A stretch of DNA of 51,477 nucleotides from an uncultured Bacteroidales bacterium (lineage in GTDB: Bacteria > Bacteroidota > Bacteroidia > Bacteroidales > FEN-979), in NCBI GenBank assembly GCA_903824935.1, contig CAIJYT010000285.1:1-51477 (forward strand), written 5' to 3'. Below, piece by piece: positions 12,325 to 41,800 of this stretch (positions are counted from its first letter, which is position 1; each line of letters opens with the position of its first letter). The notes under the pieces are model-generated. The model had not been told where the DNA came from, searched no databases, and saw only the letters and a program-made list of their open reading frames with translations. The position numbers and the translations under genes are program-made.

Positions 12325-15300
12325 TTAATCGCGTGAAATTGCCGAGTTCAGGTACGAGACAAGCACCTCGTTCTTATTCCCGCTGGTGCCATCGTAGGTC
12401 AGGGTAACGACAGGAATTCCTGTGATTCGCCTGATCTCCTGGGCCATGGCCTCAGTTACCATTGCCGGGCAGCAGAAGGCAGGATTGGTTTGCACAAAAA
12501 GAGAGATCCCCGGATAGTTTTCGAGGATATAAAAAATCTTCAGGATGTTCTCGTAGGATTCGCCTGAATGATAAGGGTTTATATTGAATTTAGGCAGATT
12601 TTTTTCAAGGCGTTCAGGACTGACAACCGGTTTGTTCCCCAGGTATTTTTTGAATTGATTATAGTACCTGTCCTCAAACATTTTAATGCTCGAAATCATC
12701 ACCCTGTAGAGACCAGTATTAAAATAATCGCCACGTGCCATAGCCCGGCGTATCTGATTCTCGATCGTTAATTTTACCAGGTCGGTATAGGGTGTTGTGA
12801 CTACTTCGCCCCCGTTTTCTTCGATATCACGAATCAGGTCCTGATTCATGATGTCGTTATCCCTCACGTACAGGTCGCCGAAAATGGCAACCAGCGGCTT
12901 GTTCTCCGGTTTCCGTTCAATTTTATCAAACAGTGAGACCGCTTCAGTTACGGCAGCATCAATCTGACGCTTGCCGAGAAAAGCCGTTTCAAGGATACTT
13001 ATGCTTTTTTCGATAGCAGCATCCGTTTCACCCCGGTTGACCTCATAAGGCCTTATTTTGCATCCCATCTTCCTGATCAGCCCGCCCAGCAGGTAAGCGA
13101 AGTAGGCATAGTACCCGGTGCTGTATGCAATTTCAAGATGGGTAAGCTGCCCGAAATAAACGGATGCCTTATCAAAACCATGCCCGTAATCCTCAAGCAG
13201 GTTTTTAATATAAAAAGGATAAAGCCTGAGGTTGCAGGTGATGTAACATTTGGTCATCCAGAGCATGGTTTGTTCGGGTTTCAGCCCATGCTGTTCAACA
13301 TAATCAATGAATTCCTGGGCAACGATATTCACAGGAATACACTGCCCTGTATTATGGGCCATGCTCTTGCGGATGATCATTTCGCTGGATTTCATAAGGC
13401 GGGCATCGATGCCTCCCCTCCGGAGGTTGGCAACCAGTAAGGGTGCCACCAGGTTATCCCAGTTGGGGAACAACAGGGTCTTGCCGTTGATCCTGGTTTC
13501 GAGATGAGGCAATAAGGCGGGAGACTTTGGCTCAGGCGCTTTACGGTCCAGGGCCGAGTGGTTTCTGAACGACCTGATCGCAGCTTCTATCCTGGTTTCA
13601 TAGCCCACATTCGAGTCATGCTCATCGATCTGGAGGATGAGATAAGGCTTGTCATATTCGTTCATCATTTTTTTAAAATATTCAATGATGAAAGAATCGG
13701 GAGCGCATTTGAATGCGGTGACCAGGACAGGATAAAGATTTTTTGCCGTGGCCGTGGTCCTGGCTGTTTCAAGGATCCTGGAAGCATAATACCAGGGAAT
13801 TTTCCTGAGCAGAAGTTCGGTTTCTTCGGGCTGCAATTCGTCAGGATCAATCATGTCCTGGAAAAAGCTTTTAATCCCCATCCTGGCAAAAATATCGGGA
13901 ATGCCTTTGTTCATTGACTTCGAGAGTACCACGTAGGGCCGTCCCAGTAAAACCACCGAAACCCCGTCGGCAGGGTTAAATTCAGTTTTAAAAACCGTGA
14001 TCAGTTGCTTTTTGCGTTCATGGGCAAACAGCAGGGCCTCTTCGTAAGCCCATTTCACTTTTTCAAACGTGATGGCTGGTCCAAGGCAGGGGCTGAAACT
14101 TGCGGTAAGCTGTTTGACCACCTGCCGGTTCCCCTTATGGAAATTAAGCATTGGGGATATCATTTTCCCGGTAACGGCCTTATCCTTCATTGTAAAAAGG
14201 AGAGAGCCCGAGTACTGTGTGTAATAGCAGTAATGGCTATCGGAATTTTCCTGTTTGTCCCTTGTTTCCAGTGAAACCGGGAAAAAAATAAAATCTGTTT
14301 TACCTGCCAGCCAGTTTACATGACCGTGAATGGAATCAATTGGCGCGCAAAATTCAGCACCGGCTATTCGCTTTCCTTCTTTTACAGGGTCTGTGTAATT
14401 TTCGCTGGTCACGATGCGCACGGATAAATTTCCGAAAAAACGTTTCCAGAGTATAAGTTCATCATACAGGTGCAATGCAGCCGGTAATCCAACCACGACC
14501 TCATGGCTGAAGGTCTTGGGCTGGACCAGGCGAAGGATAGTGGCTCTCTGTTCAAGGAGGTTAAAAACCCCTGATTCTAAGTTAAGGTGTTTTTTTGTTT
14601 CATAATCCCGCCCGCAAAGAAACCCGTATGCCACCTGTTCTCCATGCACATTGGCGAGGCTGATGTGGCAATGATTCGCGCAGATCGTGCACCTCTCTGA
14701 ACGGATGTCAAGGACTTCCCGGAAAAACCCGAGGCCCCTGAACCCGGATTTGGACGACATATCATTTTTAAAGCCATAGTGCCTGGTTTCAGCCGGTTTT
14801 TCTTCCCCGAGAAGCAGGGCTACGCCCAGAGCGCCGGTAAGATGACAGTAAGGCGATACAAATATTTGTTTTCCCAGCCGTTGTTCAAAGGCCGCGACCA
14901 GTGACTTGTTTTTTGCTGTTGCCCCCTGGAAACAGACTTGCTTGCCTATGGAACTCTCTACAGCCACTTTTTTAAGGTAATTTTCGGTCACTGAATGAAG
15001 TACCGCAGCAAGGATCTCATCCACCGTATACCCTTTATTAAGAAGATGATTCATGTCGCGTTCCATAAAAACAGTGCAGCGGTCGCTGGTAAGCGGGGCC
15101 GACACTCCCCCTGTCCGCTTTGAATAGGCATCCAGTTCACAGCCCAGTTTCCCTGCCTGCTCCTCGAGAAAACTCCCGGTACCGGCTGCACAAACGGCGT
15201 TCATCTGCGAAAAAGTCACCATTCCCTTATGCATGATGGTAAACTTGGAATCCTGTCCGCCGATCTCAATTATGGTATCAGTTTCGGGATTCAGTTCATA

Positions 15301-16596
15301 CGCAGCCCTGGCATGCGCCGTGATCTCATCAACGATGAGATCGGCATGGATGAGCTTCCCTATGAATTTCCTTCCCGACCCTGTGGTCCCGGCACCCGAT
15401 ATGCTGAGGTTGATCCCTGTTCTAAGTATAAGGTCATCAATGGATTCGAAAACTGCCTGGACTGCTTCGGCAGGCCTGCCCAAGGTAGCGGTATAAAAAC
15501 CGGCAAGGGGGGAATGATCAGTGTTTGTAAGAATGGCTTTTGTACTCGTTGATCCGATATCTATTCCCAGCAAAGACTTATAATTCGAGCCTTTAACCAG
15601 TGGAACATACTGGTCGACCAGCACATCCGCAGTATGGGCAACAAAAGAAGGTTTGAATTTCCATGAAGCCTCACTTATAAAATCCGGATACCCCGAAAGC
15701 TTTATTTCCAGCGGGGGATAGAAATAATTTTTCTCCTGGTCATCAGGAAGTAAAATCTCATCAAGGGATGATATCTTCTTCATTGCTGGATGCTGTTTAT
15801 CCTGCAGCCAAAGATAACATGCACCGGCAGCACCCAGGCAACATGAATATTCATTCAGAATGAAACGGGTGTTCAGAAGGTCTTCAAGATGCCTTATCAC
15901 AGCTGCATTTTTTGAAACGCCTCCAGCAAAGAACAAGGGGAGTGAGGGGTCGGCCTGTTTAAAGAGTGTATCCACCACATTCACGGCGAGTCCCCTGCAA
16001 AGGCTGTCGCAAATGGCTTCAAGGGAAAAACCTCTCTGCTGGGCATGGATAAGGTCGGTTTTGGCAAAAACCGAACAACGGGATGCAATTTCAGGAATGG
16101 GGCCTTTGTTTCTTAATGCAACTTCACTCAACTCTTCGATGCCTGAGAGGTTAAGGCGGAAGGCCTGCTGGTCGAGAAAACTTCCGGTACCCGCAGCACA
16201 GGAAGAGTTAGACCTCACCGATTCGAAATTTCCTTTGTCATCGAACCTGATCAGGCTGAATTTTTCGGCTCCTATGTACAACAGTGACCTTGCTTCATTG
16301 CATAAAATTTTTGTCGCCCTGATAAGTGCAAGCTGGGTGTTAAAGGAAGTGATCAGCCCGGTATTAAATACCGGGGATGCACAGGCGGCAATACCAGTAA
16401 GGTTCGACAGGTCCAGCTCATGAGTGGCAGACCTCAGCCATTCCCTGAGTTTCCCTTTATGAGCAAGGTACAGGGTTTTCAGGATACGGCCCGACATATC
16501 CATGAGCACAAACGAAATGGTGACCGATCCTATATCTATTCCAAGCAGGGTCTCCCGGGTAAAATGCCCGGTTTGTTCCCTCATCGACATGTCCAT
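12325..16596 (-). CDS. Giant acyl-CoA dehydratase activase (BadF/HgdC type) fusion
   Basis: 1423 residues. Activators of 2-hydroxyacyl-CoA dehydratases and benzoyl-CoA reductases use ATP to push an electron from a [4Fe-4S] cluster to the dehydratase. Here two ASKHA ATPase domains are fused: L-L-G-I-D-I-G-S-V-T at about 17-26 and L-L-G-I-D-I-G-S-T-S at about 342-351. Each has the cluster cysteines: Cys133 (S-S-C-A-A-G-T-G-S-F) and Cys174 (R-C-S-V-F), then Cys469 and Cys507. A Cys/His segment (C-T-I-C-A-N-H-C-H) near 650 starts the DUF2229 region. The C-terminal part resembles HgdB/dehydratase subunits (T-N-P-A-F-C-C-P; T-Y-D-G-T-S-G-N-K-N). The ATG at 16596 was chosen because extension to 16689 needs a GTG and overlaps pirin. 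No partner dehydratase genes are adjacent. Confidence 0.9.
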   Translation of the reverse strand: MDMSMREQTGHFTRETLLGIDIGSVTISFVLMDMSGRILKTLYLAHKGKLREWLRSATHELDLSNLTGIAACASPVFNTGLITSFNTQLALIRATKILCNEARSLLYIGAEKFSLIRFDDKGNFESVRSNSSCAAGTGSFLDQQAFRLNLSGIEELSEVALRNKGPIPEIASRCSVFAKTDLIHAQQRGFSLEAICDSLCRGLAVNVVDTLFKQADPSLPLFFAGGVSKNAAVIRHLEDLLNTRFILNEYSCCLGAAGACYLWLQDKQHPAMKKISSLDEILLPDDQEKNYFYPPLEIKLSGYPDFISEASWKFKPSFVAHTADVLVDQYVPLVKGSNYKSLLGIDIGSTSTKAILTNTDHSPLAGFYTATLGRPAEAVQAVFESIDDLILRTGINLSISGAGTTGSGRKFIGKLIHADLIVDEITAHARAAYELNPETDTIIEIGGQDSKFTIMHKGMVTFSQMNAVCAAGTGSFLEEQAGKLGCELDAYSKRTGGVSAPLTSDRCTVFMERDMNHLLNKGYTVDEILAAVLHSVTENYLKKVAVESSIGKQVCFQGATAKNKSLVAAFEQRLGKQIFVSPYCHLTGALGVALLLGEEKPAETRHYGFKNDMSSKSGFRGLGFFREVLDIRSERCTICANHCHISLANVHGEQVAYGFLCGRDYETKKHLNLESGVFNLLEQRATILRLVQPKTFSHEVVVGLPAALHLYDELILWKRFFGNLSVRIVTSENYTDPVKEGKRIAGAEFCAPIDSIHGHVNWLAGKTDFIFFPVSLETRDKQENSDSHYCYYTQYSGSLLFTMKDKAVTGKMISPMLNFHKGNRQVVKQLTASFSPCLGPAITFEKVKWAYEEALLFAHERKKQLITVFKTEFNPADGVSVVLLGRPYVVLSKSMNKGIPDIFARMGIKSFFQDMIDPDELQPEETELLLRKIPWYYASRILETARTTATAKNLYPVLVTAFKCAPDSFIIEYFKKMMNEYDKPYLILQIDEHDSNVGYETRIEAAIRSFRNHSALDRKAPEPKSPALLPHLETRINGKTLLFPNWDNLVAPLLVANLRRGGIDARLMKSSEMIIRKSMAHNTGQCIPVNIVAQEFIDYVEQHGLKPEQTMLWMTKCYITCNLRLYPFYIKNLLEDYGHGFDKASVYFGQLTHLEIAYSTGYYAYFAYLLGGLIRKMGCKIRPYEVNRGETDAAIEKSISILETAFLGKRQIDAAVTEAVSLFDKIERKPENKPLVAIFGDLYVRDNDIMNQDLIRDIEENGGEVVTTPYTDLVKLTIENQIRRAMARGDYFNTGLYRVMISSIKMFEDRYYNQFKKYLGNKPVVSPERLEKNLPKFNINPYHSGESYENILKIFYILENYPGISLFVQTNPAFCCPAMVTEAMAQEIRRITGIPVVTLTYDGTSGNKNEVLVSYLNSAISRD

Positions 16597-16666
16597 TTGA
16601 TGCCATAAGGTTGTTCGGCCAAAGGTAACCCAAAGGCCGTCTGAATGCAAATTAAAATGATTCTTC

Positions 16667-17515
16667 TTATTTCGTGAAAGTCCCTTCACGGAACTCGCGG
16701 AAGGCGGTCATAAGCTCTTCCTCGGTGTTCATTACGATGGGGCCCCGCCAGGCAATGGGTTCTTTTAAAGGCATCCCCGAGATCAGTATGAAACGGGCCC
16801 CGTTACTGCCTGCCCTGGCAATGATTTGGGGGCCTTCCCCGAACAGGGCTCCCTCACCTGCGTTTAAGAGGGTTTCTGATAAGGGTTCAAAGCCGGCTTC
16901 GCCTTCAAATACGTAAGCAAAAACAGTATGTGCGGGATTGACAGGCGCGTAGAATTCTGTACCTGGAGGCATTGCCACATCGAGATATTCAGGTTCGGCA
17001 AAGATATCCTTAACAGGTCCTTTAAGGCCATTAAAAGTTCCGGCGATGACCCTGACCCTGACATCATTTTCAAGGATGGCTTCCTTTATGTCTTTTGCAG
17101 GGATGTCCTGGTAGCGGGGAGCAATCATTTTATGAGCTGCGGGCAGGTTGACCCAAAGCTGGAAGCCATGCATGCGGCCCCCATCATATTTCGGCATCTC
17201 CTGGTGAATGATCCCTTTGCCGGCCGTCATCCATTGAATGTCGCCCTTGCCGATCACACCGCTGTTTCCCATACTGTCACTATGTTCGACACGTCCGTCG
17301 AGTATATAGGTCACCGTTTCAATGCCACGATGAGGGTGCCAGGGGAACCCAGCCATGAAGTCATCCGGGTTATCCGATCCAAAGAAGTCAAGCAATAAAA
17401 ACGGGTCAAACAAGCCTTCTTCGTAAAAACCGAAGATCCTTGTCAGTTTCACACCGGCCCCGTCGGAAGTCGGCTGCCCGTGGATGATCTTTTTAATTTT
17501 CCTGTAAACTTCCAT
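16667..17515 (-). CDS. Pirin family protein
   Basis: 282-residue bicupin. The N-terminal cupin has the pirin metal ligands His60, His62 (W-H-P-H-R-G-I-E-T-V-T-Y), His104 and Glu106 (G-I-I-H-Q-E-M-P). The C-terminal pirin domain carries the smaller motif about 200-260 (T-V-F-A-Y-V-F-E-G-E-A). Some pirins have quercetin dioxygenase activity and others are regulatory; no choice is possible from sequence. It is cytoplasmic with no signal peptide. It lies 41 bp after the small membrane protein and 70 bp before the activase gene. Confidence 0.93.
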   Translation of the reverse strand: MEVYRKIKKIIHGQPTSDGAGVKLTRIFGFYEEGLFDPFLLLDFFGSDNPDDFMAGFPWHPHRGIETVTYILDGRVEHSDSMGNSGVIGKGDIQWMTAGKGIIHQEMPKYDGGRMHGFQLWVNLPAAHKMIAPRYQDIPAKDIKEAILENDVRVRVIAGTFNGLKGPVKDIFAEPEYLDVAMPPGTEFYAPVNPAHTVFAYVFEGEAGFEPLSETLLNAGEGALFGEGPQIIARAGSNGARFILISGMPLKEPIAWRGPIVMNTEEELMTAFREFREGTFTK

Positions 17516-17985: not shown

Positions 17986-20900
17986 TCAATACTTCAGCTT
18001 GATCTTTACTTCCATGTTAGTGGGTATTTCCCTTGTTTTAATAAAGACCATCCCGTTTTTTTCATCAGGAGAAAAGCACCAGCCGGCAGACTTTTTCTTA
18101 TAAACTTCAGCAGTTTTACAATACCTGAGTTTTGAGCCTGAGGAGGTAACCTGCTTCGGGACTGAGTTGCCGTGCAACTGGATAATGTAAGAACGTGACT
18201 GAAGCTCCCCTTTGTAATCCCCTTTCGCAGCTGCTATCTTAATTTCAGTGACACGGTTAAGGGTATCGGATAGGGCGGACATGTCTGTAAGCGTAAACTT
18301 CCCTTCCCTGTAATCACGGTTGGAGCCTTCGTCCTCGAACATCGTGAAATCAGCCCCGGCTCCGGGGTACACATCGAGTGTAAGCGTATCTGCCGGGCGT
18401 TCATTATCGTAATTCATCTGCTGGTACATAGGGATAACCGAACCTGCCCTCACGAACAATGGTAATTTATCAAGAGGGGCGGGATAGGAGTTCAGCCAGG
18501 TTTTTCCTTGGTATACCTTACCATCCCAGTAATCGAACCAACGGCCTGCGGGCAGGTATATGCTGTCACGCTTTTCCTCATCCCGGTAAACAGGAACAAC
18601 AAGAAAATTTTTACCCAGGAGGAATTCGTAGCTGTCAAGACTTCCCAGTGCGACAGGGTCCCGGGGGTATTCGAGCACAAGGGCGCGGACGGCAGGAACC
18701 CCGGTTTCGGACGCCTCATGGCAGAGAGAATACATATAGGGAGTCAAACGGAGTTTAAGTTTCAGGTATCTACGGTTGATGGAAGTGTAGGGCTCTCCAT
18801 AGATATAGGGTTGTTTGTCTTTTGGCGCCCAGCCCGACATGGACATGAACACCGGCGTGAAACATTTCCACTGAAGGTCGCGGGTAAAGGTTTTGTCGCT
18901 TCCTGCAAAGATACCGTCCACGTCGCCCGTAGCGCAGTTCTGGGCCGAAAGCCCCGAGCCGATAACTGTTGGGATATGCCAGCGGATATAATCCCAGCTT
19001 CCTTTCTGGTCACCTGTCCATACTACCGAATTGCGCTGGGTGCCCGCCCATCCGCAGACCGACCATACAAAACCACGGGCATCGCTGTTTTGTTCTATCC
19101 CTTCATAAGCGGCCTTACAACCATCAATAGCGAATTTATAACCTTCGCCAACCCAGGCCACATCGAGCTTACAGAGACGGCTGCCATACTGCCCGACCTC
19201 CCTGGCGATTTTTTCAACCCCGTTCTCGGTCCAAAGCCCCGTATGGAAGCCTTTTTTACGCAGTTCAACAATTACCGAATCCAGCTTTGTATAGCCACAG
19301 CCGTAGCCGTCGTTGGGCAGTATCCATCCGCGAGGCATGTCATTTGCAATGTACTGGTCGGCTATCAGTGAAATAACATCAGGCGTCGTGCCATTGTGGC
19401 CGCTGGTATTATGGCCTTTTTTGGCCCCCCGGTTGTAGCAGTTCGCATCGCCCATGCCCAGCGCCCAGCGCGGAGGCAGGAACGGTTTGCCTGTAACATC
19501 GGTATAAGCATTAAGGATCTCCTTAAGCGATCCGCCTGCAAAATAATAACAGTCAAAACGGGCTTCCGAATGCGACAGCTTTACAGTGTCTTTGAAGGCG
19601 TATTCACCCGCTGCGTAAGTGTTCCTCAAGGCCCCGTAGCCATTGGTGCTCATATAAAACGGGGCCGGATTCGGGGCACCGCCTTCTTCCCAGTTCCAGT
19701 CGATCCGCAGCAGTATCGTCTTGTCGCGATGGGAGAAGCGCCCGTTTTGCATCCCGCCACCGTAAAAATATTCGTTTTCGCCACGGCTGAGGTATTGCAT
19801 AGTTTCCCTGCCATAGCTCATACAACGGTTTTCTTCCCAGACCAGAGTACTGTTATCAGGCTTATACATTGCAAAACGCAGGGGATTTTTATATGCGCGA
19901 AGGGCCACAGCAGATGTAGTCATGAGGTAATACCTGTCCTTTTCAACAAACTTAACACCGGCCTGCCCATTGGGCTGGCTGATCACAATATCGCTTCCTG
20001 CAGGGTTTGTGAACATGCCGTCATAAGCCATTTGTATCCTGAATATATCATCCCTGCAGAACTCAACATTCACCCTGGCATGGTTGCATTCGAAGGTGAA
20101 AGTCTTTCCCGACCATGTGAAACCTGTAACGGCCCCAAGCTCGTAAGCTCCTGAATACAGCTCCATCGCAAGCGTATCGTTTCCCTTCCTTTCATCTTCA
20201 GGCAGTGCCGTATAAAATCTGATCCGATGAATGCCGTAATCGGTGAGATCGGCAGGGGGAAATGCAACTTCCACAGTGTCTATGACCTGTATCTGGTGCT
20301 GGACGTTTAAGGGCACCGTGACTTTTACAGGATTGCGCTGATCGACCTGCAGGTAGCAGTCAAATGGCTTTTCCAGGGGTTTCGAACCCAGGTTGACAAC
20401 CTTAAAACGGAACACGTCGGCATTGCTAAAAGTATTGCCAGCCTGTTTATGCGAAGAGAGTGAAGAAGCCAGGAGATCGGCATCCAGGGCTTCCGAAAGT
20501 TCGATGTCATCGACCATCCAGTACCACATGTAAATGCCTTTCCAGTAAAACCGCAGGTATACGGTCTTCTGGAAAGCAGCCGTACCCGTGATGTTCAGCT
20601 CAACTTCCATGGGGTTTGGGCAATCCCCTTCGGAACTGATGCCATGCCTGACTTCGTATTCCTTCCAGTCGGTCCCGTTGCGTGAAACCCCTACGTAGAG
20701 CCCGCCATCATTTCGGACCTTACCCCAATCGTTCCATTTGAAATTCTGCGTGAACTTCAGCACAACGGAGCTTTTATCCGAGCAATCGATGGACATTGTC
20801 TGGAAATACGCATCAGGCCAGATGTTCTTCTTTTCCCAGCGGCGGTAATATTTGTCGACCTTCACACCCGGTGCAAACTGCATATGAAATCCCCCGCTCT

Positions 20901-21135
20901 TTGAAGCTATAGGAGGCGCCTGCTGGTCAAATCCGTATGATCCGGGGTAAGGCTGGTTTGTACATTCCCAAACAATATTGCTGTCGTTGACGGCTTTGCA
21001 GATCCATCCTTCGGGAAGCCTGCCCCCTGAAAAATTTTCAGCCCAGAAAACTTTGGATGGGAACTGCTTGTTTTTCTGTGCCTGTGCCAGGATTGCGAGT
21101 ACGATAAGTGCAAAGAGGATAAACGGTCTTTTCAT
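17986..21135 (-). CDS. GH31 glycoside hydrolase, exported
   Basis: 1049 residues. Signal peptide at 1-19. Residues about 27-215 form a jelly-roll, MAM/carbohydrate-binding-like domain, then a CARDB-like segment (about 235-330). The GH31 N-terminal beta domain follows, then the TIM barrel from about 540. The nucleophile is probably Asp658 (L-C-K-L-D-V-A-W) and the acid/base Asp709 (V-V-W-T-G-D-Q). A C-terminal beta domain includes V-Y-P-G-A-G-A-D-F-T. GH31 enzymes cut alpha-glucosidic, xylosidic or related links; the substrate is not clear here. The start is 1 bp from the stop codon of the GH29 fusion gene upstream, so the two enzymes are almost certainly co-expressed and may act on one glycan. 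Confidence 0.9.
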   Translation of the reverse strand: MKRPFILFALIVLAILAQAQKNKQFPSKVFWAENFSGGRLPEGWICKAVNDSNIVWECTNQPYPGSYGFDQQAPPIASKSGGFHMQFAPGVKVDKYYRRWEKKNIWPDAYFQTMSIDCSDKSSVVLKFTQNFKWNDWGKVRNDGGLYVGVSRNGTDWKEYEVRHGISSEGDCPNPMEVELNITGTAAFQKTVYLRFYWKGIYMWYWMVDDIELSEALDADLLASSLSSHKQAGNTFSNADVFRFKVVNLGSKPLEKPFDCYLQVDQRNPVKVTVPLNVQHQIQVIDTVEVAFPPADLTDYGIHRIRFYTALPEDERKGNDTLAMELYSGAYELGAVTGFTWSGKTFTFECNHARVNVEFCRDDIFRIQMAYDGMFTNPAGSDIVISQPNGQAGVKFVEKDRYYLMTTSAVALRAYKNPLRFAMYKPDNSTLVWEENRCMSYGRETMQYLSRGENEYFYGGGMQNGRFSHRDKTILLRIDWNWEEGGAPNPAPFYMSTNGYGALRNTYAAGEYAFKDTVKLSHSEARFDCYYFAGGSLKEILNAYTDVTGKPFLPPRWALGMGDANCYNRGAKKGHNTSGHNGTTPDVISLIADQYIANDMPRGWILPNDGYGCGYTKLDSVIVELRKKGFHTGLWTENGVEKIAREVGQYGSRLCKLDVAWVGEGYKFAIDGCKAAYEGIEQNSDARGFVWSVCGWAGTQRNSVVWTGDQKGSWDYIRWHIPTVIGSGLSAQNCATGDVDGIFAGSDKTFTRDLQWKCFTPVFMSMSGWAPKDKQPYIYGEPYTSINRRYLKLKLRLTPYMYSLCHEASETGVPAVRALVLEYPRDPVALGSLDSYEFLLGKNFLVVPVYRDEEKRDSIYLPAGRWFDYWDGKVYQGKTWLNSYPAPLDKLPLFVRAGSVIPMYQQMNYDNERPADTLTLDVYPGAGADFTMFEDEGSNRDYREGKFTLTDMSALSDTLNRVTEIKIAAAKGDYKGELQSRSYIIQLHGNSVPKQVTSSGSKLRYCKTAEVYKKKSAGWCFSPDEKNGMVFIKTREIPTNMEVKIKLKY

Positions 21136-21136
21136 A

Positions 21137-24100
21137 TTATTTTTCGGTAATGCGGATTACGAGTGCCGGTGATTTGGCCATTGTTTTAAGGTATGAGGCA
21201 GGGATGATGACTGTTCTTTTCCCATCTTTACTTCTGATCTTTAATGTCTGCGGATGACCGGGCAGGCTGGCTTCAGAGGCTTTCCCGGCAAACCCGGCCG
21301 GCAGATTGACGGAAGCGGGGAGGGCTTCATTTTCCTTTGCCAGGAAAAACAGGTACTTCGTTTTGCCATCCTTGCTTTGGGTGAAACAGATGTTGTCTTG
21401 CTGGTAAGGGGCAAGCGGACGGCTGTTGTAAATGGCTTCCCCGTTGACTTTCATCCATTCCCCGATTTGTTGCAGCCTAAGGTAAGCTTCAGGTGCGAAT
21501 TCGCCTGTCTTGTCGGGACCTATCCCCAGGAGAAGGTTGCCGCCTTTGGCCACTATCTTTACAAGCGTGCTGATGACCCAGTTGAGTGATTTATAATGTT
21601 CACCCGGACCTGTATGATACCAGGAATCTCCAAGCGTAATGCAACTCTCCCAGGGATAAGCAGGAACGTTGGCAGGGATCTGCTGTTCAGGGGTGCGGTA
21701 ATTTTCGAAATCACCGTGAACCGTGCGGTCGACGATAAGGATGCCGGGCTGGTTCTTCCTGGCCATCTTCGCGATGGTTGGCATGTCAACATCCTGTATC
21801 CACAGGTGTTTCCCAAGCCATGGCTTTGTTTCTTCAGTGAGTGTGTTTGCAGGTCTTACCTGTCCCCCGTCAAGCCAGAGGATATCGATTTTGCCATATT
21901 CCTTCGTGATCTCATCAATCTGGTTGAAGGTGAATTTCTGGAATGACTTCCACCGGTCAGGATATTTTGCCGGATCGTAGTTCACGTTCCTGTCAAGGGC
22001 AGGGAAGTAAGGCCACCAGTAATCCGGGCAGTGCCAGTCGGGCTTGCTGAAATAGGCGCCAATTGCCAACCCCTCTTTTCGGAAAGCTGAGAAGACTTCT
22101 TTGACCACATTACTTCTTGGGTTCTTTGAAAATGCTGATGCGGCATCGGTGATTTTGTAATCGGTAAATTTTGTGTCGAACATGCAAAAACCGTCATGGT
22201 GCTTGGTGGTGAATACCACGTATCTCATTCCCGCGTCATGCGCTGCTTTCGCCCAATGCTCAGGATTGAATTTATCGGGGTAGAATGTCTTTCGGATATC
22301 TTCATAAGCTTTTTTATAAGTAAACCAGTCGTCGGAGTAAGGACCGCGCCTCTGGCACCATCCCTCGTCTTCGGGGCAGAGGCTCCAGCTTTCCACTACT
22401 CCCCATTCGCTGTATGCGCCCCAGTGGATCAGGATTCCGAATTTCCAGTCCTGCCATGTCTTTAAGTTCCGGCTGACCAGTGAATCCTTGGGCCAGTCAT
22501 ACGGAGGTTCGGCATTGGCAGGAGGTTCAGCAGTGTAACGGATACGCTTGTTGAATTTTTCCTCTCCGTTTACAAGCACTTTCAGGTAGAACCTGCCCGA
22601 AGGATACCGGCGAAGATCATAGGTGAACATGCCTTCTTTCAGTTTCGGGTAGAGGTGTTCTTCTACTACACTTGCCCCCGGGTCGCTTACAAGCCGAACC
22701 GTGACATCTTCGGTTTTGTTTGCAAAATAATCGAGTGTCGTGAAATCCTTGGTCCTGGTTGGATAGAGGCCTATGGAACAGGCATTCCTGTCCACCGTGT
22801 CAGGATGATACCCGGCTGTGAAGTTATACACCCAACCTGATCCGCAGTCAGATTCGAACGACTTGATAAGTTCGCCCCTGCAGTTCAGCAGCCGGGCAAT
22901 CCCGCGCCCACCCTCTTTGTTATTCCAGAACTCCAGCCCATCGCCGGCTGTGTCGCTCATTATCAGGAGGTAAGGACCGGGTGCCAGTTTCAGCGTATCC
23001 CGGTACTCAGTCTTTTCAGTTAAGGAGCCCAATTTTCTTTCCTTGACGATCTTCCCGCCGGCCGACTGGATCTTCCAGGAATTATGTGAGGGTTCATTAT
23101 TGGTGAGCAGGTAGAACAAAAGTGCTGTGTCAAGAACCGGGGCAGGGATGAATGCTGTTTTAAGGCTGTTATCGGCAGGATACTCGTCATCATTTCCATT
23201 GGGTTTTGAAAGGCTGACTTCAAAGCTGTTGGAACCCGGCTTTGAATCAATGTTCCCCGGGAGGTAGACGTTTTCACTTCTCATGGATTCAAGTTTTCCT
23301 GTCCATTTGAATTCCCTGTAAGGAAAGCCTGTTGTTCCATACCTTATGATGCAGTTTTCAAGCCTCAGGCTGCCTGAGTTCCGTATTATTACAGCCGGGT
23401 TGGCCGACCTTGGGTTGGCCCTGGAATAGATGCATTTGGAAGACGGGGCTCGCACATCATCAACTGAAATATCCATTTCAGCCTGAGGTTTTTTGTACTG
23501 GACAAGGTAAGCGCTGATCACTTCGTTTGCACTTGGTTTGGGGGAAACATAAGACTGCATTTTAAAGACGAGGGTATGGGCTGATCCCGGGATTACAGCT
23601 ATGTCGTAAATGTCGGGTTGAACCAGGTCGCCGGGGCACCACCCGGCGCGGTCATAGATCCAGGTCCCGGCCTGGGGATATAAGGGGTTTTCGCCGCATT
23701 TTTTCCAAATTGCCCTTGAATCGGCCATTTGACCGTCATACCATATTTCCCGTGTCTTTTTGCAGAATTCCCCGCAACCGTCGGGCTCATCCATCCCATG
23801 TCCGGTTTGAATGACCCTAAGCCTGGCAAACGACGCTCCCTCATCCGCAGTAAATGAAACAGGAATTAATTTCCGAGTTATAGGTTTAAGGCTGTCGCCA
23901 TATTCAAAATGATCATCATATATTTTGCGGATTGAAATTGCCTCGGCTGCAGGCTTCCCTTTGATTATCTCAAAATCGATTGTGATGGCCCAGCCCCTGT
24001 CGTTCGCAGGTTCATAGCCTGAATGGTTGTAATTGATCTCTACGCTGTCTCGCAGCAGCAGGCTGAAATCGGTAACTTCCACCTCCCATTCAAAATGCCA

Positions 24101-24454
24101 GTTTTTTCCGAACGCTCCTCCATAGGGCGTGAGCATGCGGCCTATCTCGTAATTCTGAAGATTGCCGTGAATGCCTCCCTGCCTGAGAATGCTGATACGG
24201 TCGGAATAGTCCCAGTCGGCGCAGCGCATGGTGTCGGGGCAGGCGAAATCAACATGCATGATAATTTTACGGACAGGCTCGGTTGGTTTTGGAAAAACAC
24301 CCCAGCGGATATAATCCTTGTTCCCTTTCGAGGGGTCGGTAACAACGGTTGTTTTATGATGCGTGATCACATGGATGGTGTCAGCCGGAATGGCCCGGAC
24401 AGGGGTATTGAACACAATGCAGCTAATGATGAACAGAAAAATGGCAGGTTTCAT
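21137..24454 (-). CDS. PNGase F-like / T9SS-domain / GH29 alpha-L-fucosidase fusion
   Basis: 1105 residues in one uninterrupted frame. Signal peptide at 1-21. Residues about 40-320 match PNGase F: the pair C72/C78 then W81-D82 (Asp60 of PNGase F), G-C-G-E229-F-C (Glu206), and P-Q-A-G-T-W-I-Y-D-R-A-G-W-C-P-G. The residue equivalent to Glu118 is not conserved (Y-N-H-S-G-Y). Then come a CARDB-like piece (about 320-430), a beta domain (430-550) and a segment at about 560-642 that resembles a T9SS type A sorting domain (L-Y-P-T-R-T-K-D-F-T). The rest (about 651-1105) is a GH29 fucosidase with nucleophile Asp862 (I-L-W-L-D-G-G) and H-W-G-A-Y-S, K-H-H-D-G-F. Activity of either half is untested. It is followed after 1 bp by GH31 and preceded by GDP-fucose synthase. 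Confidence 0.88.
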   Translation of the reverse strand: MKPAIFLFIISCIVFNTPVRAIPADTIHVITHHKTTVVTDPSKGNKDYIRWGVFPKPTEPVRKIIMHVDFACPDTMRCADWDYSDRISILRQGGIHGNLQNYEIGRMLTPYGGAFGKNWHFEWEVEVTDFSLLLRDSVEINYNHSGYEPANDRGWAITIDFEIIKGKPAAEAISIRKIYDDHFEYGDSLKPITRKLIPVSFTADEGASFARLRVIQTGHGMDEPDGCGEFCKKTREIWYDGQMADSRAIWKKCGENPLYPQAGTWIYDRAGWCPGDLVQPDIYDIAVIPGSAHTLVFKMQSYVSPKPSANEVISAYLVQYKKPQAEMDISVDDVRAPSSKCIYSRANPRSANPAVIIRNSGSLRLENCIIRYGTTGFPYREFKWTGKLESMRSENVYLPGNIDSKPGSNSFEVSLSKPNGNDDEYPADNSLKTAFIPAPVLDTALLFYLLTNNEPSHNSWKIQSAGGKIVKERKLGSLTEKTEYRDTLKLAPGPYLLIMSDTAGDGLEFWNNKEGGRGIARLLNCRGELIKSFESDCGSGWVYNFTAGYHPDTVDRNACSIGLYPTRTKDFTTLDYFANKTEDVTVRLVSDPGASVVEEHLYPKLKEGMFTYDLRRYPSGRFYLKVLVNGEEKFNKRIRYTAEPPANAEPPYDWPKDSLVSRNLKTWQDWKFGILIHWGAYSEWGVVESWSLCPEDEGWCQRRGPYSDDWFTYKKAYEDIRKTFYPDKFNPEHWAKAAHDAGMRYVVFTTKHHDGFCMFDTKFTDYKITDAASAFSKNPRSNVVKEVFSAFRKEGLAIGAYFSKPDWHCPDYWWPYFPALDRNVNYDPAKYPDRWKSFQKFTFNQIDEITKEYGKIDILWLDGGQVRPANTLTEETKPWLGKHLWIQDVDMPTIAKMARKNQPGILIVDRTVHGDFENYRTPEQQIPANVPAYPWESCITLGDSWYHTGPGEHYKSLNWVISTLVKIVAKGGNLLLGIGPDKTGEFAPEAYLRLQQIGEWMKVNGEAIYNSRPLAPYQQDNICFTQSKDGKTKYLFFLAKENEALPASVNLPAGFAGKASEASLPGHPQTLKIRSKDGKRTVIIPASYLKTMAKSPALVIRITEK

Positions 24455-24585: not shown

Positions 24586-25551
24586 TTAACCGTATTTTTT
24601 TAAAAAATCGGAATAAGTGCTCTCAATCCCCGGGCGTAACTTGATTTTAGGAGTAAACCCCAGTTCAGTGAGCAGGGTGGTATCGAGAAGCTTTTTCGGG
24701 GTTCCGTCGGGTTTGGTATGATCAAAAATCAATGTCCCGCTGAATCCTACAATTTCCTTAATGAGAATTGCGAGTTCTTTAATGCTTATATCCCTGCCCC
24801 ATCCTATATTTATAAACGGGGTCCCTTCATAGTTCTCCATGAGAAAAACCACGGCGGCAGCAAGATCATCAACGTGCATGAATTCACGAAGGGGTGAACC
24901 TGTACCCCAGATATTCACATAAGCGGCACCGGAGATCCTGGCCTCATGAAACTTCCTTATCAGGGCAGGGAGAACATGTGAAGTTTGAAGATCGTAGTTG
25001 TCGTTCGGACCGTAAAGGTTGGTAGGCATTGCCGAAATATATTTTGTGCCATATTGCAGGTTGTAATTTTCGCACATTTTCAGGCCGGCAATTTTTGCAA
25101 TCGCGTAAGGTTCGTTGGTGTATTCAAGGGGACCTGTAAGAAGGTGTTCTTCTTTGATTGGCTGAGGCGCATTTTTAGGATAGATACATGAACTTCCCAG
25201 GTAAAGCAGTTTTTTAACCTGTGAAAGATAGGCGGTATGTATCACGTTATTCTGAATCTGGAGATTTTCATAAAGGAACTGTGCCCTGAGGGTGTTGTTT
25301 GCACTGATCCCGCCAACGATGGCAGCGGCATAAAAAACATAGTCGGGGTTTTCTTCTGTAAATAGTGAAGTACAGGCATGGAGATCAAGCAGGTCGATCC
25401 TGTGGTATTTTACAGATTCAAGCTTTTCGGGTACTTTCCGGTTAAAAGTCCCAACGATGTTCGTATACCCTTGTGATCGCAGACTGCGAAGGATTGCGCT
25501 GCCAACCATTCCGGCAGAACCTGCAATCAGGATTTTATCTGTCTTATTCAT
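24586..25551 (-). CDS. fcl: GDP-L-fucose synthase
   Basis: 321-residue short-chain dehydrogenase/reductase (extended) that makes GDP-L-fucose from GDP-4-keto-6-deoxymannose with NADPH. The nucleotide motif G-S-A-G-M-V-G-S-A is at 11-19. The catalytic Ser-Tyr-Lys set is visible as S-S-C-I-Y-P (120-125), Tyr149 and Lys153 (Y-A-I-A-K). P-T-N-L-Y-G-P-N-D-N-Y and L-R-E-F-M-H-V-D-D-L-A are typical of Fcl. It lies 131 bp upstream of the fucosidase fusion on the same strand. The partner GDP-mannose dehydratase (gmd) is not in this window. Confidence 0.95.
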   Translation of the reverse strand: MNKTDKILIAGSAGMVGSAILRSLRSQGYTNIVGTFNRKVPEKLESVKYHRIDLLDLHACTSLFTEENPDYVFYAAAIVGGISANNTLRAQFLYENLQIQNNVIHTAYLSQVKKLLYLGSSCIYPKNAPQPIKEEHLLTGPLEYTNEPYAIAKIAGLKMCENYNLQYGTKYISAMPTNLYGPNDNYDLQTSHVLPALIRKFHEARISGAAYVNIWGTGSPLREFMHVDDLAAAVVFLMENYEGTPFINIGWGRDISIKELAILIKEIVGFSGTLIFDHTKPDGTPKKLLDTTLLTELGFTPKIKLRPGIESTYSDFLKKYG

Positions 25552-30098: not shown

Positions 30099-32525
30099 CT
30101 ATTCTCTCGCAAATGCTGCCTTAGCCTCCATCTCAAGGTCCAGGTATGCAGCCTTTTCAACGGTAACACCAACGAAACGAATAGTTCCACCCTTGAAAGT
30201 TCCGGGAGACTTGTATGCCTGGCTCACTGCATCACCGCTATCATAGCCAACGCAAAGTCCGTCGCCCGAAAGTGTGAATTTACCTGCCTGAGTCCTCATC
30301 GGCCCCTGGGCAACCACCTTGTCATTTACATAAAGTTTCATAGTCCCTATAGATTCGTGGTGGTCTCCGGCCTTTTCCCGGGTGAATTCCATTCCAAAGG
30401 TATATTTGCCGGGTTTTAGAGGGCCTGAAACGTATTCCTGTTCGGGCTTGATGCCAAGGAAATTATAGACATAGTGCAATTTATGGTCTTTAATAAATAA
30501 GGTATGTCCACCAAAGCGTGAGCCATGTGCGAAGATAACGCCCGAGCAGTTTGCATCAGTTATTGTTACATCTGCAAGGATCTTGTAAGAGCGGTTGCGA
30601 ACATTCACTGCAACACCTTCGGGAACCGGGGCGGTATTGGGATAATAAATATACCTGTCCCGAGGAGGCTCTCCTGTTGGCCTGTCCAGACTGATCAGTT
30701 CAAGTGCGGTGCGGTCATCGAGAGGCAATACATTATTTTTATCAGCTTCTTCAAACCAGGCTTTGATCATTTCCTTCAGTTTTTCAGGATTTTCCTTTGC
30801 CAGGTCTTTTGATTCGGAGCGGTCAACCTCAACATGGTAGAGCTGCCATTCATCTTTGTCGAAATGACCTTTAGCGGTCAGCGGAGCATGCAGAGCTGCA
30901 GCTTTCCAGCCGTCTTCCCATATCCCGCGTGTGCCAAGCATTTCAAAGTACTGACGATGTTTTTTCGTCGGGTCTTCCTTTTTGGCATCAAAAGTATAAC
31001 GCATCGAGATACCCGAGAGGGGGATCTGTTTTACACCGCGATAAACATCAGGCATCTGCAGTCCGCATACATCAAGGATAGTTGGCACGATATCAACAGA
31101 GTGATGATACTGGTCACGAACCTCTCCACGGGCTTTGATGCCTTTTGGCCAGGATATTACAAGGGGATCACAGGTACCTCCTGAATACTGGGAATACCGC
31201 TTGAACATCTGGAAAGGGGTTGAGAATGCGGCAGCCCACCCGGTGGGGAAATGTTCGTAAGTATTGGGGCCTCCAAGTTCATTAATATGCTTCATGTTCT
31301 CTGCCAAAGCATCAGGCCATCCATTGAAAAATTTATTCTCATTGACCGAGCCGTTAGGTGTGCCCTCTCCTGAAGCGCCGTTGTCGGCAGCATAGATCAC
31401 AATCGTGTTGTCAAGCTGGCCGGTTCTTTCGAGGTACTCAATGATACGACCCACCTGGGCATCGGTATACTCGGAAAATCCCGCGTATACTTCAGCCAAT
31501 TTTGAGAACAGTTTTTTCTCATCAGGGTTAAGGGTATTCCATGGACGCACAAAGTCGGCAGGATTGGATATCGCTTCAGGCAGGGGGTTGAATGGGGTGA
31601 GCTGTGTGCCTTTTGGAATAATACCCTTCGCGATCATACGGGGAAGCACCCATTCCCTGTAAGCTTCATACCCGTCGTCGAACTTTCCCTTGTATTTATC
31701 GATATAATCCTGCGGGCACTGGTGAGGGGCGTGATTGGCTCCCGGGCAAAACCACATATACCATGGTTTTGACGGGTTGCTTGCCTTTTCATCGGATATC
31801 ATTGTGATGGCCTCGTCGGCCAGGTCTTTTGAAAGATGGTATCCCTGTTCAGGCATGTAAGGCTGGTCAACAAAGTGGTTGTCGTTTACCAGGTCGGGAT
31901 ACCATTGATTTGTTTCACCGCCGATAAAGCCATAATATCTGTCGAATCCCATATTGAGCGGCCAGTTCTTACGGCTTCCTCCCTCGGCAACATCAGTATA
32001 GGGTACATTATGGTTTTTCCCAAGCCAGAAAGTGCTCCAGCCATTTTCCTGAAGGATTTGTGCCATAGTGGCACAAGCTTCCGGGATATGACCGTTTGAA
32101 CCGGGGTATCCGGTAGCTCCTTCCGTGATGGATGCCATACTGTTAAGATGATGGTTACGCCCGGTAAGGAGAGTTGAGCGGGTTGGAGAACAAAGGGCAC
32201 AGGTATGCCATTGGGAATACATCAGACCGTTGTCGGCCAGCTTCTGTAATGTGGGCATATTGATCCTACCGCCAAACGGCGACCAGGAAGCAAGGCCAGT
32301 GTCGTCGTAAAGAACAAACAGGATATTCGGAGCTTCTGCCGGAGCCTGTTTCGGGATGAACGGTGCCCAGTCAGGAACAGATTCACGTACATCAAGGTTT
32401 ATTTTACCCTTGAATTCTTTTGAATCAGCCGGTGATCCGGCTTCTTTTTTTTGTGCTTGCTGGCAGCCAAATGCAAATACGATGAGTGCAAGCAAAAATA
32501 AATTGAGTGCTTTTCCTTGTTTCAT
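30099..32525 (-). CDS. Arylsulfatase (formylglycine type) lipoprotein
   Basis: 808 residues. Lipoprotein signal peptide with lipobox Cys21 (F-A-F-G-C). The formylglycine motif C112-S-P-T-R is in L-C-S-P-T-R-S-T-L-L-T-G-R, and Asp74-Asp75 (L-Y-D-D-T-G) are metal ligands. Later motifs N-H-A-P-H and A-A-D-N-G-A-S-G-E-G fit the sulfatase fold. The C-terminal ~180 residues (about 640-800) form an extra beta domain often found in long arylsulfatases. It removes sulfate from an organic sulfate ester outside the cytoplasm; the substrate is unknown. No maturase gene lies in the window. Promoter at 32543-32574. Confidence 0.93.
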   Translation of the reverse strand: MKQGKALNLFLLALIVFAFGCQQAQKKEAGSPADSKEFKGKINLDVRESVPDWAPFIPKQAPAEAPNILFVLYDDTGLASWSPFGGRINMPTLQKLADNGLMYSQWHTCALCSPTRSTLLTGRNHHLNSMASITEGATGYPGSNGHIPEACATMAQILQENGWSTFWLGKNHNVPYTDVAEGGSRKNWPLNMGFDRYYGFIGGETNQWYPDLVNDNHFVDQPYMPEQGYHLSKDLADEAITMISDEKASNPSKPWYMWFCPGANHAPHQCPQDYIDKYKGKFDDGYEAYREWVLPRMIAKGIIPKGTQLTPFNPLPEAISNPADFVRPWNTLNPDEKKLFSKLAEVYAGFSEYTDAQVGRIIEYLERTGQLDNTIVIYAADNGASGEGTPNGSVNENKFFNGWPDALAENMKHINELGGPNTYEHFPTGWAAAFSTPFQMFKRYSQYSGGTCDPLVISWPKGIKARGEVRDQYHHSVDIVPTILDVCGLQMPDVYRGVKQIPLSGISMRYTFDAKKEDPTKKHRQYFEMLGTRGIWEDGWKAAALHAPLTAKGHFDKDEWQLYHVEVDRSESKDLAKENPEKLKEMIKAWFEEADKNNVLPLDDRTALELISLDRPTGEPPRDRYIYYPNTAPVPEGVAVNVRNRSYKILADVTITDANCSGVIFAHGSRFGGHTLFIKDHKLHYVYNFLGIKPEQEYVSGPLKPGKYTFGMEFTREKAGDHHESIGTMKLYVNDKVVAQGPMRTQAGKFTLSGDGLCVGYDSGDAVSQAYKSPGTFKGGTIRFVGVTVEKAAYLDLEMEAKAAFARE

Positions 32526-38844: not shown

Positions 38845-41800
38845 TCAGTCTTTCTTTAATACCTTTATCCTGTATGTTACTCCTGAGTTATCAGTCAGTA
38901 TGAAATAGTAAGCCCCGGCCTGTTTATTTGCAAGGTTCATGAGGTATGTTGTTGAAGGATGTTCAATGGCCCCCTGTTCAACAACCTGTCCTGCCGAAGA
39001 AACCAGCCTGTAATTAAATCGTTCCCCCGGGGGGAGGCTTAAATTGACGTATCCATCGGCGGGTACAGGGAAAGCGGTAAGGTTGTATGCCGGGGGAACT
39101 TTTTCGGTGCCTGCAGGGTAGTCAACGCATCCCACCAGGCTGAATTCAGCTGCAGATGCCCAGGGATTGCCATTGACTTCCGAGAGCGCCCTCAACCTGA
39201 AAAACCTTCCGGATTTTGCAGAATCGAGAACTACGGTCTGGGGTGCGCTGGTATTTACAAACTGGCCTGTTTTAACCGGAACTCCCCAATTAAGGGTATC
39301 ATCGCCAATATAGAGTTCATATTCTTTGATGCGGCCATTTTCGCCGTCCTGCCTGGTAAGATAAATGAACTTATAGATCTGGTATTCCTGGCCAAGCGCT
39401 ATCCGTATTTCGTGAGGATAAGGAACATCACCAGTACTCCAGGCCGTATGCCAGATGGTTGAAGGATCATTGTCGAAGCTCATGACTGCATAACCCGGGT
39501 AATTCAATTCTTCGCTGTCGACATAAAGCAGGGACCATATTGATTTAGGCAGTATGTCGGGGTTGTTGCAATCGTAAATCGAAGGGCAGGTCGTGGCCGT
39601 TACCATTCCTGCGATTGAACGGGTGTAAGCCTGGCCGTTTTGAGTTACTGTAAGGCTTACATCGTAACTTCCCGGGCTGCCAAGCACAACCCTTGGGTTG
39701 CGGATGTCGGGGTTCTCTAGCCATGCCGGTGCTGGACTGATGCTCCAGTGCCACGTGGCCCCGGAATGGTCCAGTATTGAATGATCATCAAAGAAAAGGG
39801 TATCAGTCATGCAGTCGTAATGTGCTTTTTCTACCCAGGGATTGACGATGGGCTTGAAATCGGTTTCCTGCATGGGTGATGACCATACACCGCAGTTACC
39901 GGCGGAACGAAGTTTGGCGTCCCTGTAAAACGGCAATGCCAGGTTGACGTCCATTCCCGCAGGATAATTATTGTCATAGGCCTCCCAATCGCTCATCCCT
40001 TCTTTCCTGTAAAACACCTTTGCCACATGACCGTTTTTTGCCTGTGTGTAGAGATACACCAGGTCCTGCCCCGAGGCAGTAGGTTGAATGTTGATGCATT
40101 TCAGGTATTCCACGACAGAACCTGTCCAGTCGGTCCAGGTATCGCCACCGTCGGTTGATTTGAATACTTTTCCAAGATCGGCCGACCAGGTCCCGTTCTG
40201 CAGGCATGCATAGACTATATTTTCACTATACGGGGAGATTGCAAAAAAGAGCTTGCCCTTCCAGTTTGAAGTCCCGTTTGGAGGCGAGGTCAGGGAGGGC
40301 TTTAAAACCCAGCTGAGACCTCCGTCAGTACTTTTATACAGGCCCCGGTTTACTATATCGGCATAGAAAACCGTTGGGTTGCTATAGCTGGTCTGCAAAT
40401 ACCTTACCTCGTCGGGAAAATTGTAAACCAGGTCCCAGGTCACGCCCATATCAATACTTTTCCAAAACCCGGTACCGTTGCCCAGGTATATCGTTCCGTA
40501 GTAATTGGGGTGAAATACCATATTGCCCCTTCTCCCGCCATATTCATCCATGTTGGGATATTTGCTGAAGATAAAACGGCCGTCGGGTTTTCCTTCGGCA
40601 GTTGAAGGCAGAATCCAGCCATTGCCCAGGTCATTGAACGCTGCATACCGGCTTTTACCTTGTAGCACCCAGCCTGTAGGAGATTCAGCGCCTCCCATCC
40701 GCAGTGCTTTAGGCTGATAAAAATCTGCCATGGCGGTATTTCCGTTATGGTACCTTCCGCCTACCACAATATCTTCATTCCAGCCCTGATCAAACCCCCA
40801 CATATCGGAGCCTTCGAGTCCGTTCACCCTTACAAAATAATTTGCCTGCAAAGTGAAATTATCAGTGGTATAGTTCATTCCACCGTCTGTCGAAACCCAG
40901 GTATTGCCATTAGGGAGCATTTTGATATCCTGAATGTCGGGATGGATGCTGAAGCTCCCGGCATAACCTCCGACGGCAGAAAAAGTGCTGCCTCCGTTCA
41001 CCGATTTGTAAAAGGTTTGAGTGCCCACCAGGATGATGTTTGCATCGACCGGGGAAATATCCAGGACCAGGTCGAAATAGCCCTGCCCGTTGTCCATAGG
41101 GAAGCTTCCTGTTTTGCCTGTCGCCAGCAGGGACCAGTTCCAGGTACTTCCGCTCAGCGTTCCTTTTAAGAGGTAAGGAGTGCTGTTGGAGCTGAGTAAA
41201 ACTGCCATGAGGGTATTCGGGTTTGCGGGAGTCACTGCAAGAAGCCCCCCGCTTGATTCGGTATAGGTTGAAGGGAAGGATGCCTGGACCTGGAAAGAAA
41301 CACCCCCGTCAACGGAAGTGATTAATGAGAAGTTTCCGCCCGATTTGGTCAGGGCAAAGATCTGTGAATTATCGTTTGTCTTTATCTCTGCATCATATAC
41401 AGGGGCAGTCCATTTTTGGGTCCAGCTTGTTCCTCCGTTAGTGCTTATGAAAAGTCCGCTGGCTGAAGCAGCCAGTATTTTCTGGGGATTTGAGGCATCT
41501 ATCCTGAGCCGGTCGGCGTAAAAAAGGCTGCCTGAAGGCAGCAGGGGAGTCCAGGTCACCCCTCCGTCGATAGTTTTGTGGACCTGGTTGCCTGCCGCTG
41601 CATATACTTCATCAGGATTCGAAGGATGCACTGCAATGGCTGTAACAGCGCCTCCGAAATAATATCCCGGGGCAAGCAATGACCAGGTCATCCCCTGGTC
41701 GGTGGTCTTGTTCACAAACCCAGTTTCGGTGCCGCAGTAAATGGTGTTGTTGTCGGAAGCAGCAACATCAAATGAATAAACGTTCGCCTGCCAGGGACAT

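Follow-up and report, generated by a model that had tools for sequence, protein, structure and literature searches.

Core fucose is described as hindering the N-glycan-releasing enzyme PNGase F (Elizabethkingia meningoseptica, 1pgs; EC 3.5.1.52) only when it is α-1,3-linked, the residue Glu118 being what blocks it, and type II PNGases (PNGF-II and B035DRAFT_03341) are active despite having a Gly in place of Glu118 (available text of PMC9522356). Two further Bacteroidota PNGases, PNGaseL and PNGaseDo, are described as carrying C-terminal signals of the type IX secretion system (T9SS), and the available part of that paper (PMC12381499) describes no fusion to a glycosidase. The α-L-fucosidases of the GH29-A type (6gn6, 9eu1–9eu4) are stand-alone proteins. 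PNGase and GH29 genes do meet as neighbours: a plasmid of Hymenobacter sp. NBH84 carries a PNGase gene (WP_185284537.1) and, 96 bp behind it, a GH29 gene (WP_185284538.1). We analysed a stretch of 51,477 nucleotides, hereafter the window, which is contig CAIJYT010000285.1 of an uncultured Bacteroidales bacterium (assembly GCA_903824935.1, lineage FEN-979). It contains a single gene encoding a PNGase F-like domain, a T9SS-like domain and a GH29 domain. No described PNGase-GH29 fusion was found in searches of the open-access literature. We read the product as a natural two-activity deglycosylating enzyme derived from an old fusion, with a probability of about 0.7.

The gene occupies 21137–24454 of the minus strand, as one frame of 1105 residues with no internal stops; the plus strand across the same interval has many stops. 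An earlier note, made from the sequence alone, had recognised the frame and its 1105 codons, and the strand is added here. It had also raised the possibility that the frame is joined by an assembly error. The genome assembly is indeed fragmented (289 contigs), but the same junction, colinear across the linker, is present in six other assemblies. Because the layout recurs in this way, we reject an assembly or annotation error, the probability of which is negligible.

The PNGase F signature proposed at about residues 40–320 is borne out by a Pfam match to PF09113 (N-glycanase_C) at residues 194–317 (E 8.1e-16; 58.5 bits, cut-off 25) and by a phmmer alignment of residues 53–307 to residues 32–287 of 1pgs (E 2.9e-17), which spans both Pfam halves. 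A profile of 28 relatives aligns to 1pgs at 3e-29, and the catalytic domain is homologous to that of PNGase F. The active site was compared in 28 sequences, seven fused and 21 stand-alone, with a truncated copy (G085) and a distant LamG type left out. Equivalents of Asp60, Glu206 and Arg248, which we take to be the key residues of PNGase F (the numbering of Asp60 was checked on the alignment; Glu206 is presumably the Glu of its 'CAEWC'), are conserved in 28/28, the window included. The position of Glu118 is occupied by Ser, Thr or Ala in every sequence and is followed by an invariant Gly; in the window it is Ser145, next to that Gly, and the alignment could be off by one relative to the Gly position of type II enzymes. 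The window PNGase thus has no acidic residue at position 118, the mark of type I, and shares this absence with type II, whereas its family has Ser, Thr or Ala rather than Gly there. It also differs from both in that no N-terminal bowl-like domain is seen, and in its long beta and T9SS-like C-terminal extension with a GH29 domain fused behind it. Because Glu118 blocks core α-1,3-fucose in PNGase F, type II enzymes have Gly in its place and no acidic residue is found here, tolerance of this fucose by the window PNGase is plausible. For a PNGase without Glu118, fucose removal need not precede release, and the two steps may run in either order. The earlier statement that core fucose limits PNGase F therefore holds for the α-1,3 linkage, but the blocking residue is replaced in this protein. 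No second PF09113 match was found in the window's own genome at E ≤ 0.01, and no relative of the PNGase domain was found in viral contigs. The same family and order also have more distant relatives of PNGase F that carry LamG domains (L090:5049-8495 and L092:4670-6856); these end in canonical C-terminal T9SS domains (58.0 and 47.7 bits).

The C-terminal half is a complete GH29 domain, as had been claimed: PF01120 matches residues 645–1006 (Pfam, E 2.7e-93), and the structural model adopts a barrel fold matching 6gn6 (Z 34.8 over 386 residues, root-mean-square deviation 2.9). It has the fold and sequence family of the GH29-A enzymes, to which it is about 30% identical. Asp862, the predicted catalytic nucleophile, is invariant in the 22/22 alignment rows that cover it (a PNGase-only row excepted) and in 7/7 fusions, and stands at the end of model strand 858–862, which is strand 4. 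Glu923 and Glu936 are the acid/base candidates from the alignment; acid/base positions are described as aligning poorly in GH29-A (PMC10154630, available text). Comparison with the unfused GH29 gene of L002 gave a ratio of nonsynonymous to synonymous substitution rates (dN/dS) of 0.064 over 457 codons, and the GH29 half is under purifying selection in this comparison.

Between the two enzymes, residues 563–637 match positions 1–73 of the 75 of PF18962 (Por_Secre_tail), below its cut-off of 27 bits (17.4 when the full-length protein is scored, 15.0 for the fragment). The full-length window protein had no NCBIfam match at E ≤ 1, and a whole-genome search with TIGR04183 gave none at this domain, though it made 134 matches elsewhere in the genome, which also encodes the T9SS component SprA (TIGR04189), split into two pieces on separate contigs. 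In a profile-profile comparison with 20 real T9SS domains encoded in this genome, the domain aligned end to end, over 78 of 87 columns, at 97.8% (E 7.8e-13). Part of this signal is common to beta sandwiches of this type, because the preceding beta domain reached 92.2% over 56 columns in the same comparison (a third region, 4%). A local profile of the 20 T9SS domains gave the internal domain 10.5 bits, the best of 560 shuffled proteins reaching 9.5, and it rates the preceding beta domain above the middle one in several relatives (15.3 versus 11.0 in G033, for instance). Of the 14 stand-alone fragments that match PF18962, 7 score higher with DUF3244. Some room is thus left for a spacer domain of other than T9SS-like nature. 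However, the stand-alone PNGase of G076 bears a canonical PF18962 domain in the corresponding position (40.7 bits for the full-length protein), which together with the profile-profile match argues for T9SS descent. We read the middle domain as a T9SS domain by descent, probably conserved for structure as a spacer.

The counterpart of this domain falls below the PF18962 cut-off in 20 of the 21 stand-alone PNGases, only G076 passing; 13 of these 20 match the family weakly, as fragments or whole. Since the stand-alone enzymes share this state, the divergence of the domain probably predates the fusion and was not caused by its move to the middle. It is C-terminal in the stand-alone PNGases, with 0–6 residues after it, while 464 residues follow it in the window, far from the extreme C-terminus. 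In the fused copies it is about as conserved as in stand-alone proteins at similar catalytic identity. The earlier note had placed a T9SS sorting segment at about residues 560–642 (its interval 22529–22774 corresponds to residues 561–642) and had argued that displacement may have cost its processing. Homology is upheld by the profile comparison, but PF18962 is matched only below threshold and TIGR04183 not at all; the domain is now internal, but its divergence is likely older than its displacement.

The note had called for a search for the same architecture in other Bacteroidota, and six further genomes were found. Seven fusions were confirmed by translation: G000 (the window), G033, G186, G128, G218, G073 and G311. 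Queried with the PNGase half, the order sample gave matches at E ≤ 1e-90 in 23/393 genomes, six of which (the window's own included) have them in frames above 1000 residues; the class and phylum samples, which overlap with it and with each other, gave 29/395 and 4/395, with such a frame listed in the table only for the window's own genome. The fusion of G033 was added by a search of 61 relatives. A further candidate, G056, listed with a frame of 1097 residues, was rejected: several stops separate a PNGase of 571 residues from a GH29 of 487, and these are two genes. Six of the seven fusions, the window among them, share one GH29 subfamily. In G311, the same kind of PNGase is joined to a GH29-B domain (4zrx, 3e-142; 3ues, 1.4e-125) and an F5/8C domain, and in the PNGase tree it is sister to a stand-alone PNGase (99/98). 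The sequences therefore indicate that such genes were fused at least twice.

In a 54-row GH29 tree, the six fused genes of the shared subfamily form one clade (100/99) with four unfused ones (L002, L003, L004 and G015). L002 is the sister of the window gene (100/100), and L003 and L004 are placed in the same genus by contig match. With G090 added in a 24-row tree, five unfused genes stand among the six fused. Holding the six fused genes as a clade was worse by 194 log-likelihood units (approximately unbiased (AU) test, p 2e-6), and at least four changes are needed; such counts alone do not distinguish gain from loss. A fresh fusion confined to the window is ruled out by the GH29 and PNGase trees and the AU test. 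The architecture proposed at the outset, a PNGase F-like protein, a T9SS-domain remnant and a complete GH29 joined in frame, is thus retained, but not as a recent event.

The direction of these changes can be read from three sources. In the PNGase tree, the six fused PNGases group with a single stand-alone one, G338 (87/97, a node not starred), which is nested with G218, G128 and G073 (100/100). The L002 protein, after its signal peptide, starts like a PNGase: among 48 GH29 N-termini it scores highest against a PNGase N-terminus profile, a score reached by 0/9600 shuffles, and L004 comes second (12/9600). The corresponding L002 junction DNA match is colinear but weak (34 nucleotides, 73.5%, E 2.7), and the profile finds no PNGase scar in L003 or G090. 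Finally, G015 encodes a GH3-GH29 protein (L086:6341-10516; 1391 residues) that matches first the GH3 gene of G033 (70% over 892 residues), which lies about 70 nucleotides upstream of the fusion there, and then the GH29 half (79%); the most likely origin of this protein is a deletion that removed the PNGase between the GH3 gene and GH29. These three observations favour loss over gain, and the best fit is one old fusion after which the PNGase half was lost repeatedly. In the GH29-B lineage, G117 and G377 show no PNGase N-terminal scar, and G220 has an N-terminus that looks PNGase-like by eye with a profile score that is not significant (59/2000 of its own shuffles). G004, G005 and G007 gave no PF09113 match. 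Two short frames at G014:C98:7630-8185, 71% and 75% identical to the window GH29, are probably a broken copy.

The surroundings of these genes also bring PNGase and GH29 together. The 21 stand-alone PNGase loci (338.6 kb) contain 6 GH29 genes, spread over 4 loci, where about 0.6 would be expected from 157 GH29 genes in 87 Mb of those genomes, a rough test in which thresholds differ. In the Hymenobacter pair, the PNGase is 54% identical to that of the window, but the GH29 is of another subfamily (30% identical); sialidase, GH20, GH27, sulfatase and SusC/SusD genes lie beside it. Unfused pairs also occur in G056, 63 bp apart, and in L005. A second GH29 subfamily, of about 440 residues, stands beside the fusions of G186, G218 and G128 and the PNGases of Hymenobacter, G463 and G321; it includes L119:11225-12553, L121:10614-11954, L120:1736-3058 and L171:7912-9252, and the members compared are 52–73% identical to one another. 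The GH31 gene 1 nucleotide downstream of the window fusion has α-N-acetylgalactosaminidases as best solved relatives (6m76, 5.1e-117), and a GH31 gene also follows GH29 in L002, L003 and L004. A xyloglucan reading of the GH29-GH31-GH3 company is weakened by this closeness, and the gene company points to glycoproteins.

The two-activity reading is built on observed domain content, key-residue conservation, recurrence, tree patterns and neighbourhoods; from these we infer activities, substrates, order, location and the role of the spacer. The protein would be exported by Sec and probably act in the periplasm. Its N-terminal half would cleave the bond between N-acetylglucosamine and Asn in N-glycoproteins or glycopeptides, as PNGase F does, and its C-terminal half would take α-L-fucose off the same glycans, whether these are still attached to the protein or already released. 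The former T9SS-type domain would serve as a folded spacer between the enzymes and no longer as a sorting signal. The architecture would have arisen through an old fusion with the parts in this order and, independently, at least one further time with a GH29-B enzyme, and the PNGase half would have been lost in several lineages. The two-step N-glycan tool suggested earlier thus remains a sensible pairing, given the recurrent fusion and neighbourhood, but the order of its steps is not fixed. Several points weigh against this reading. None of the members has a known activity. All 28 sequences lack Glu118, which matters in PNGase F, and PF09112 gave no Pfam match in the window protein at E ≤ 0.1. 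The AlphaFold2 model of the PNGase half, whose input alignment held the window and 21 proteins from related loci with only one relative covering this half, has a predicted local distance difference test (pLDDT) score mostly below 50, and its fold and active site are not readable. The repeated loss argues that the PNGase half is often dispensable. Furthermore, 17/21 stand-alone PNGase loci have no GH29 within the stretch examined, no SusC/SusD pair was found among the proteins scanned in the immediate window neighbourhood, and that neighbourhood includes genes unrelated to glycans.

The replaced Glu118, the unmatched PF09112 and the recurrent loss would suit a PNGase half that is a binding or degenerate domain, leaving only the fucosidase at work. 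However, the three key residues are invariant in 28/28, conservation within the PNGase half is highest in the catalytic domain for most of the fused pairs that were compared, and type II enzymes are described as active with Gly for Glu118 (PMC9522356, available text); we consider this quite improbable. Somewhat less remote, though still unlikely, is that both halves are active on unrelated substrates and were joined only for co-export or co-expression, with no hand-over between them. This GH29 subfamily is common without a PNGase, GH3 stands in for the PNGase in G015, and three lineages of the window's own genus (G004, G005 and G007) keep GH29 with no PF09113 gene found; but the recurrent PNGase-GH29 gene neighbourhoods, and the fact that one kind of PNGase has been fused independently to GH29 enzymes of two subfamilies, speak against this. 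The internal domain might also still engage the T9SS, so that the protein would be carried to the surface or cleaved to give a PNGase on the surface and a GH29 apart from it. The genome encodes the system, with its split SprA and its many TIGR04183 domains, the internal domain is homologous to those domains, and its conservation in the fused PNGases matches that in the stand-alone ones. Nevertheless, it scores below the cut-off and is internal, whereas T9SS signals are described at the C-terminus (PMC4560394, available text), which makes continued sorting very improbable.

Features of the fusion gene and the adjoining GH31 gene in the window
Feature	Position	Strand	Basis
Whole fusion gene, 1105 codons and stop	21137..24454	-	Translation
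N-terminal Sec signal peptide, residues ~1-22	24389..24454	-	Judged by eye and from relatives' aligned N-termini
PNGase F-like catalytic domain, residues ~45-320	23495..24322	-	Pfam, phmmer, profile alignment
Asp82, aligned with PNGase F Asp60	24209..24211	-	Alignment
Ser145, aligned with PNGase F Glu118	24020..24022	-	Alignment
Glu229, aligned with Glu of PNGase F 'CAEWC'	23768..23770	-	Alignment
Two conserved beta-character regions after the catalytic domain, residues 330-435 and 436-550	22805..23467	-	Alignment
T9SS C-terminal-domain-like domain, now internal, residues 560-641	22532..22777	-	Pfam and profile comparison
GH29 α-L-fucosidase domain, residues ~650-1105	21140..22507	-	Pfam, phmmer, predicted structure
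Asp862, predicted GH29 nucleophile, invariant, end of strand 4	21869..21871	-	Alignment and model
GH31 gene, 1 nucleotide downstream of the fusion	17986..21135	-	Pfam; closest solved structures are GH31 α-N-acetylgalactosaminidases

Elsewhere in the window, a GDP-L-fucose synthase gene (24586-25551:-) lies on the strand of the fusion, 131 nucleotides upstream of it, a fucose-making enzyme beside a fucose-removing one. A sulfatase is encoded at 30099-32525:-, and two BNR/sortilin-type proteins, both with TIGR04183 domains, at 38845-42276:- and 42418-44031:+. The interval 12325-16689:- encodes a 1454-residue acyl-CoA dehydratase activase-like protein (BcrAD_BadFG and DUF2229).

Standard PNGase F is awkward on N-glycans with α-1,3-linked core fucose, and an enzyme that naturally joins both steps would be a candidate tool. 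The fusion also shows which GH29 subfamilies partner PNGases, and thereby offers testable specificities for uncharacterised fucosidases. In its fullest form, which we put forward tentatively and regard as rather doubtful when taken as a whole, the reading is of a recurrent bifunctional enzyme with a secretion-domain spacer and a type II-like PNGase tolerant of core α-1,3-fucose, which would strip and defucosylate plant, insect or other core-fucosylated N-glycoproteins, in a lineage that may repeatedly build and dismantle the fusion. The family offers a worked case of fusion followed by what appears to be repeated loss, in which sequence scars tell the direction.

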